Shown here in pieces: positions 23,278 through 25,313 of a stretch of DNA of 64,000 nucleotides. Made by a program: the position numbers and the translations under genes. The stretch is from Brevinema andersonii. GTDB lineage: Bacteria > Spirochaetota > Brevinematia > Brevinematales > Brevinemataceae. How positions within the stretch are numbered: position 1 is the first letter of the stretch; the number at the start of each line of letters is the position of its first letter. The notes below the pieces were generated by a model. The model had not been told where the DNA came from and ran no database searches. It saw only the letters and a list, made by a program, of their open reading frames with translations. The stretch is from positions 186,001-250,000 of the forward strand of contig NZ_FOKY01000001.1 in NCBI RefSeq assembly GCF_900112165.1, written 5' to 3'.

Positions 23278-25313
23278 ATGTCTCTTGAGTCAAACATTCT
23301 AGTAGCATCTCTATTTAATAGTAAATTTTTTTACTTCTATTCTCGTTAGGACTAATTATCCGTTTATATTTGATTTTTTGCGTTCCCCCAGAAATGATTG
23401 TAAATCTTTTTGCTCCTTTTTTACAACGTTTTATCAATTATCCTTTCCAAAATCCTTACAATTATTTCTTAATTTTAGAAAGAATCGATATTTTTCCTTA
23501 TGGAATTTCTATGGCTTTAGGTGCTATTTTGCTCTATCTTCCTTTTCATTGGATAGGAGGCACCGGATATGCAGGATTGGGATTATCACTACTGGTTTTT
23601 GATATAGCTATCCTTGTTTTGCTGACCAAAATGATCCCCAAACAAAAAGTTTTTCTCTGCCTGATTTATTGGCTATCACCGCTCGTTATCTACATCAATT
23701 ACTGGCATGGACAATTGGATTTAATTCCTATATTCTTTCTGATGCTCGGGCTTTACTGGCTGGACAAAAATCTTACATTTAGTTCATTAAGCTTTGGAAT
23801 AGCACTTAGTATGAAACTGCATATTCTTATGATTCTGCCGTTTTATGCAATCTATTTATCTAAGCAAAAACTCCCAATGAAAAAAATAATTATATATCTT
23901 TTAGAAACTTGTATCCCTTATCTCATTTTTAACGGTATTTTTCTTAGTTCGCCAGGGTTTCAACAGATCGTGCTTTTTAATAAAGTTCAAAATTATATTC
24001 TTCATTTTCAATTATCTATTGGATCAACAACCATATATATTATTCCTATTTTGTATGGTATTTTATGTTTGGGATGCTTATATTTTTCACGCCTGCCCAA
24101 AGATTTATTTATGATTTATATTGTTTTTGCATTTTCGCTGATCACGCTTTTTCTCACTCCGCAACCAGGATGGTTTTACTGGATTATCCCTCTTTTGGCC
24201 TACATTTCGGCGAAATACCAACGGTCACTCTTGCTTTTATATTTCCTAAATTCCACGTTGCTTGTAATATATTTTGTCAATCGCGATACAATTTATTCTC
24301 ACCTTTTATATACGGTGTTTTTCTTTCTGCAAATCGTGATCTTATGGAACTTGTTTATTAATATACTGCACCGTTACGTGGCAACAAATTTTTTATACCA
24401 GCCGTACTTCATCGGAATTGCAGGCGATTCTGGTACCGGCAAAACCACATTAGCTGTTGGACTTTTGAATTTTTTTGGCGAAGAAAACTCTTTACTATTT
24501 TGTGGAGACGACCTTCACAAATAGGAACGCGGAAATAACGAATGGAACACTTTTACACACCTCCATCCACAAGCTCAAAATTTACATCAAAACATTAAAG
24601 ATTTTATCCTCCTGAAACAAGGTCAGCAGATCAATAGAAACCATTATAATCATGATACCGGAAATTTTGAAGTGATTGAACAGATCCAACCTAAAAATAT
24701 CATCATCCATGAAGGACTGCATTCATTGTATATGCCTCAAGAGCGGCGCTATTATAATCTGAAAATTTTTATTGATCCTGATCCTGAGCTTTATCATCAA
24801 TGGAAAATTTCACGCGACACCAAAAAACGTGGCTATTCCGAAGAAAAAGTAATAAGTTCCATTAAAAAACGCGAAAAAGATAAGGAAAAATTTATTTCTG
24901 TACAAAAAGATTTTGCTGATATTATTATTTCTTACTATTTACAAAAAAATCAACCTATGCTTAAATTAACAGGCTCGGTAGATATAGAAATTGGACCTTT
25001 AATAAAAATGTTTAATGAGATAAACGGTGTTGATATCCGTGTTGATATTAGCGAATTCAAACAAAATATTGATATCCGCTTTGATCAAGAAATCCCTGTT
25101 TCGGAATTTGATTCTATTTTGAAAACTCTTATTCCCGAAATAGAAGAATTTCCTTATCCTTTTACTTTTTTTGGAAACACTTACGAAAATTTCATTCTTT
25201 TATATATTATTTTTTACATTATACAAAAACACTGCTTGGAAATCCATCAAAAAAAAAAGAGAGAGAGAGAGAGAGAGAGAGAGAGAGAGAGAGGATCCAT
25301 ATGGAACCTATAA
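23278..25313 (+). pseudogene. Membrane glycosyltransferase fused to P-loop (uridine-kinase/PRK-like) kinase, interrupted
   Basis: The first 350 residues are polytopic (9-10 hydrophobic segments) with the arrangement of lipid-linked-sugar glycosyltransferases such as GT87/DUF2029. The last 300 are a kinase of the uridine kinase/phosphoribulokinase type: IGIAGDSGTGKTTLAVG (Walker A), CGDDLHK.ERGN, THLHPQAQN, IIHEGLHSLY, FIDPDPELYHQWKISRDTKKRGYS. Two lesions: a T7 run (23326-23332) that needs eight T to link the ATG at 23278 (AAGAGG site) to the main frame, and an in-frame TAG (24522-24524) where Trp is expected. After the TAG the frame stays open to 25313 through the (GA)17 tract. Either a pseudogene or an off-phase contingency gene plus nonsense mutation. 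Confidence 0.75.
25249..25294 (+). repeat. A10 plus (GA)17 simple-sequence tract
   Basis: Ten A (25249-25258) are followed by 17 GA units (25259-25292) and GG. The tract forms the end of the kinase frame (Arg-Glu repeats) and supplies a GAGAGGA ribosome site 6 bases before the aldolase ATG at 25301. Loss of one GA unit would put the kinase frame in phase with the aldolase. Confidence 0.95.

Follow-up and report, generated by a model that had tools for sequence, protein, structure and literature searches.

A (GA)17 tract at the ribosome site of an aldolase gene in Brevinema andersonii, probably one of a genome-wide set of contingency repeats at surface-glycan genes

Switches that work by slippage in simple repeats are known from other bacteria. 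In Helicobacter pylori, CT dinucleotide repeats act as a slippage switch of oipA (PMC10564699), and in Mycoplasma mycoides a type III methyltransferase gene carries 12 AG repeats in its coding sequence (PMC3498834), while whole repeat phasomes have been described in Campylobacter (PMC6321876) and Treponema pallidum (PMC11868660). The GA tracts of the spirochaete Brevinema andersonii presented here are like those of oipA and its relatives in that the number of CT/GA units sets the frame of a surface-related gene; however, the H. pylori repeats are mostly located at the 5' ends of genes for outer membrane proteins, whereas the Brevinema tracts lie mainly at glycan genes and are found late within coding sequences, at ribosome sites or inside a leader peptide, and their host is a spirochaete. 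They share with the M. mycoides gene a coding AG repeat and a premature stop at some lengths, but the latter is a single locus in a restriction-modification gene of an unrelated organism. As in Campylobacter and T. pallidum, many simple repeats, including poly-G, are present in a small host-associated genome and many of them at surface genes; the difference is that the main class here is (GA)15-39. In the open-access literature, which was the scope of the search, we found no report of (GA)15-39 tracts in Brevinematales and no paper joining Brevinema and phase variation, and the Brevinema set looks undescribed. In another Spirochaetota family (genome G036, loci L173-L179), CT/GA tracts of 13-19 units occur, and at least five of them encode LSLSLS in putative signal peptides of lipoproteins or secreted proteins, as in the outer membrane proteins of H. 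pylori.

The tract that is the subject of this work lies in a stretch of 64,000 nucleotides of the B. andersonii genome (hereafter the window), where the following elements adjoin each other:
25249..25258, forward strand: A10 run at the 3' end of the kinase-like frame, read directly.
25259..25293, forward strand: (GA)17 plus G tract, one of the 13 GA tracts (15-39 units) of the genome.
25289..25295, forward strand: GAGAGGA, the Shine-Dalgarno sequence of the aldolase gene, taken from the 3' end of the tract and evaluated by its duplex energy with the 16S tail.

By direct reading, (GA)17 proper spans 25259-25292 and is followed by GG at 25293-25294, ATCCAT and the aldolase ATG at 25301, and TRF called the tract at 25258-25293 with 18 copies and 100% matches. 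The duplex energy of GAGAGGA to the 16S tail ACCUCCUUA is -8.2 kcal/mol, compared with -6.4 and -7.4 kcal/mol for the ribosome sites of the two genes that follow in the operon. This bears out the claim of a previous sequence-only reading of this DNA that the tract supplies the ribosome site of the aldolase. The frame arithmetic of that reading, by which losing one GA unit joins the kinase and aldolase frames while the present length separates them, proved correct as well. The kinase frame falls on positions divisible by 3 and the aldolase frame on those with remainder 2, and at the present tract length the kinase-frame stop (25311-25313) lies 13 nt inside the aldolase gene. According to the frame table, a change of -1 or +2 GA units joins the two frames with no stop, and a change of +1 or -2 units places the kinase-frame stop 44 nt inside the aldolase gene. 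About 2e-15 runs of (GA)17 are expected by chance in 1.5 Mb under a first-order Markov model of the genome itself. The repeat is thus far beyond chance and long enough to slip, and its unit number alters the frame, an effect which is weakened by a TAG codon at 24522 described below.

The tract is embedded in an operon, beside which a second GA tract is located:
23370..24524, forward strand: membrane part and P-loop of the membrane-protein/kinase gene, from a putative start to a TAG at 24522-24524.
24525..25313, forward strand: rest of the kinase, a member of the PRK/uridine kinase family (PF00485, E=2.1e-30), crossing the tract into the aldolase start.
25301..26248, forward strand: intact gene of the class II aldolase/adducin family, encoding 315 aa (PF00596, E=3.6e-11).
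26245..27018, forward strand: nucleotidyltransferase-like gene 1, 54% identical to its orthologue in L147/L166.
27011..27775, forward strand: nucleotidyltransferase-like gene 2 (PF00483), 44-47% identical to those of the reference operons.
27772..28488, forward strand: family 2 glycosyltransferase (GT2) gene (PF00535, E=7e-24).
29480..29517, forward strand: (GA)19 inside the open frame 29369-30052 beside the glycan operon, currently in frame.

The gene order at 23.3-28.5 kb of the window is common to two distant Spirochaetota, whose loci (L166 and L167) served as reference operons; there, a single membrane-protein/kinase gene of 682-685 aa is followed by a HAD gene, a class II aldolase gene, two nucleotidyltransferase genes and a GT2 gene. 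The window aldolase has the family domain match and an open frame, its start position matches the orthologue starts in L166/L167, and the genes downstream of the kinase are all open frames. The kinase forms the C-terminal domain of the membrane protein, and the frame 23370..24524, with the P-loop GIAGDSGTGKTTL, aligns with the single-ORF orthologues (682 and 685 aa). Directly 3' of the P-loop stands the in-frame TAG, at the Trp codon of a motif which reads DGDHKWERG or DGDHRWERG in the references, Trp being present in both; since this codon is replaced by TAG, the kinase is broken in the sequenced genome. The window kinase ends at the A10 run, the same point as the kinase end in L151/L167, and the tract sits exactly between the end of the kinase gene and the start of the aldolase gene. 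Unlike the window, the reference operons contain an intact kinase and the HAD gene, which is missing between kinase and aldolase in the window, and their kinase and aldolase genes are not separated by a GA tract. Relatives of the aldolase were sought in named genomes and none was found, and three relatives from the same family gave no aldolase match.

The nonsense codon in the kinase and the missing HAD gene indicate that the operon is partly decayed, and the glycan cluster in the window looks partly decayed too. At 16-24 kb the coding density amounts to about 0.4-0.6, and at 30-32 kb it is near zero. Around the operon as a whole (16-24 and 28.5-32.5 kb) it ranges from 0.02 to 0.8, compared with 0.83-0.99 in sampled stretches; with such low density near the operon, some tracts may be relics. 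Minus-strand glycosyltransferase fragments were observed at 16000-24000 and 28500-32500. Elsewhere, the window encodes FlcA, the periplasmic flagellar collar protein of spirochaetes, and, at 9949-11367, an MraY-like protein of 473 aa which matches the 321-position family model in two stretches, possibly reflecting an insertion.

To place the tract in its genomic context, we used whole-genome pattern searches for the tract counts, and the neighbourhoods of the tracts together with a few sample stretches for the sequence context. The genome (1.50 Mb in 39 contigs) contains 13 GA tracts with 15-39 units, whereas (GA)15 is expected about 6e-13 times by chance. Almost nothing was found at 6-14 units, as the difference between the match counts of (GA)6 and (GA)9 is approximately explained by the same long tracts, and the longest GA run in 100 kb sampled elsewhere in the genome has three units. 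Searched genome-wide, (CA)7 was absent and (TA)8 was found once, abutting a GA tract, which rules out a general expansion of dinucleotides. Loss of mismatch repair was also considered as a cause of the tracts; MutS is present with an open frame of 847 aa, so a general repair defect is not indicated. No (GA)12 or longer was found in the three family relatives, which together have one (GA)6; the SMC protein is 58-60% identical to those of two same-family genomes (58% for an uncultured Brevinema sp.) and 38-43% identical to those of other Brevinematales. Among 60 genomes examined, such GA tracts are present in two more distant Spirochaetota.

Besides the two tracts in the window, the set comprises the following, given by contig and position, where ON and OFF refer to the one tract length that was assembled:
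C1:331048: in a short frame, the start of which weakly resembles acyltransferase 3 (E=0.05) and which is broken elsewhere too.
C9:5405: (CT)20, two codons after a ribosome site and ATG, in a leader before an NTP-transferase gene.
C11:22712: in an FkbM methyltransferase gene, in frame via (RE)n to the gene end (ON).
C11:25186: in an FGGY sugar kinase gene, halves in different frames that are joined by +1 unit (OFF).
C11:30339: splitting a family 2 glycosyltransferase gene, joined by -1 unit (OFF).
C12:1147: downstream of an mtaB-like gene.
C14:23598: in a short frame that has decayed, with a trinucleotide run behind the tract.
C20:11724: in the interval from pstB to phoU, its end 7 nt away from the phoU ATG.
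C23:18158: before rfbH.
C26:11497: before rfbF.
C27:4281: at the end of a capsule-synthesis/GT32-like gene.

We take the names mtaB, pstB, rfbF and rfbH from reading the translations and, where scanned, from Pfam. About 8 of the 13 GA tracts are inside or before surface-glycan genes, and at least three (C12, C14 and C20) are without a clear glycan gene. In five sample stretches, 3 of 87 ORFs matched glycosyltransferase 2 families; since single-member families were not all listed, the glycan background was taken as 5-10%, and the association, counted by locus, then has a P between about 3e-6 and 1e-4, a rough value because the loci were classified after being seen. The tract in the GT2 gene on C11 separates two halves that are both matched by an adjoining paralogue without a tract (41% and 33%). 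For the FGGY gene, the C-terminal domain was not recognized by Pfam, even when the halves were read together. The leader on C9 (L054 5399-5480) reads ATGCGG(CT)20 behind a strong ribosome site, and its current stop is 28 nt before the start of the NTP-transferase gene, which is homologous to the window gene at 26245-27018; with one more unit, the leader stop TGA overlaps that start. Judging from this arrangement, the leader peptide would be a translational coupling switch. Taken together, the tract positions in the GT2, FGGY and FkbM genes and in the leader peptide suggest that the tracts behave as switches.

Several of the loci have further features. The tract between pstB and phoU, 58 nt in length, directly follows the pstB stop (L051 4225-4290), and phosphate regulation may be phase variable. 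A CAG/TAG trinucleotide run comes directly after the GA tract on C14 (L050 4598-4655). An identical 1300-bp rfbH sequence (100%) is present at three contig ends (L047 12715-14014, L049 6695-7994 and L052 4838-6137), with a GA tract upstream in two of the three copies, and the duplicated gene could recombine.

A search for runs of G with a threshold of G>=9 gave about 13 in this low-GC genome (31-38% in sampled stretches), with lengths of 10-21 G. Examples are C4:4182, C20:18676, C26:13344 and C27:3221 (L184, L189, L192 and L193), and several are in or between glycan genes: the sites include a CDP-glucose 4,6-dehydratase-like gene (in frame), a GT2-like fragment and the space between two glycosyltransferase genes. 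The poly-G runs are likely to be a second class of contingency repeats. A repeated element at three contig ends (L182 2001-2011, L183 2032-2045 and L186 1-11) has poly-G just before an ATG; one copy shows G11 and another G14 between otherwise near-identical flanks, and the contigs end in the element. The different lengths in near-identical copies are indirect evidence that repeat lengths change in the lineage.

Several explanations of the tract were weighed. The sequence-only reading had supposed that the tract can fuse or uncouple two working enzymes. A deliberate frame switch yielding a kinase-aldolase fusion enzyme would make use of the tract lengths (-1 or +2 units) that join the frames without a stop, and the fusion is possible on paper; its product, however, would contain a kinase without P-loop, as the TAG at the conserved Trp cuts the kinase just after it and the two partners are not both intact. 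Moreover, the orthologous kinase and aldolase genes are separate, with the HAD gene in between, and among the aldolase-homologue loci compared, a kinase is nearby in only two and is a separate gene there. A fusion as the main function is therefore rejected and the supposition is not supported; a switch of this kind is very unlikely. An assembly artefact at the repeat is the least probable of all: a draft of 39 contigs may have miscounted tract lengths, but the 13 tracts have distinct flanks, are all shorter than 80 bp, with none at a contig end, and have sensible frames on both sides.

The tracts might be neutral microsatellites, produced by slippage in a shrinking genome without regulatory meaning, and their occurrence in decayed glycan clusters would then be due to relaxed selection. 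The partial decay of the window cluster (kinase TAG, HAD gene missing, low coding density) and the tracts close to mtaB and within the C14 fragment, for which no obvious role is seen, are consistent with this. Against it stand the length gap between 6 and 15 units, the restriction to GA and poly-G, the absence from the family relatives, the location of tracts in frame or one unit out of frame within glycosyl genes that are otherwise intact, and the association with glycan genes (by locus, a rough P of about 1e-5, classified post hoc), and we consider it improbable. It is somewhat less improbable that DNA or mRNA structure or spacing, such as a ribosome standby site or a triplex-forming mirror repeat, tunes translation or transcription of the aldolase without frame switching. 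The aldolase and phoU tracts both end 7 nt before the ATG and supply the ribosome site, pstB stops just before the phoU tract so that frame cannot matter there, and the tracts upstream of rfbF and rfbH are outside genes; however, the tracts inside the GT2, FGGY and FkbM genes are better explained by frame switching.

We therefore consider it probable that the tract is a contingency (phase-variation) locus and belongs to a genome-wide set that alters the expression of surface-glycan genes. It is this set, and not the aldolase site itself, that carries the contingency reading; the 13 GA tracts and about 13 poly-G runs, with their bias to surface-glycan genes, back strongly what had been proposed from the single tract. 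Slipped-strand mispairing at (GA)n, and probably also at poly-G, would change the expression of these genes. Filling the junction between the membrane-protein/kinase and aldolase genes and supplying the aldolase ribosome site, the repeat would by its length set the frame in which kinase ribosomes arrive, to give the overlapping stop (present length), the fusion (-1) or the later stop (+1). Because the kinase frame is interrupted upstream, these frame effects may be weak or lost, while effects on the ribosome site and spacing remain. Tract length would then vary in cells, aldolase output would follow and the surface glycan would be altered, a chain that starts from direct observations on the sequence and its frames, on the set of tracts across the genome, on the order of the genes and on the TAG in the kinase. 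At the aldolase, tuning of its translation is the likely role of the tract, and the most economical account is that the tract became the ribosome site and that its length governs how ribosomes in the kinase frame meet the start. More tentatively, a two-class phasome of (GA)n and poly-G might randomly reshape the surface glycans, some of the switches being a leader peptide or a ribosome site and not the frame of an enzyme.

Brevinema is a deep and little-studied branch of the spirochaetes. If the proposed explanation is true, it would provide a spirochaete case with a switch at a ribosome site or in a leader peptide, the repeat switches at surface-sugar genes would be ready markers for strain typing, and hidden antigenic heterogeneity is predicted within clonal cultures.
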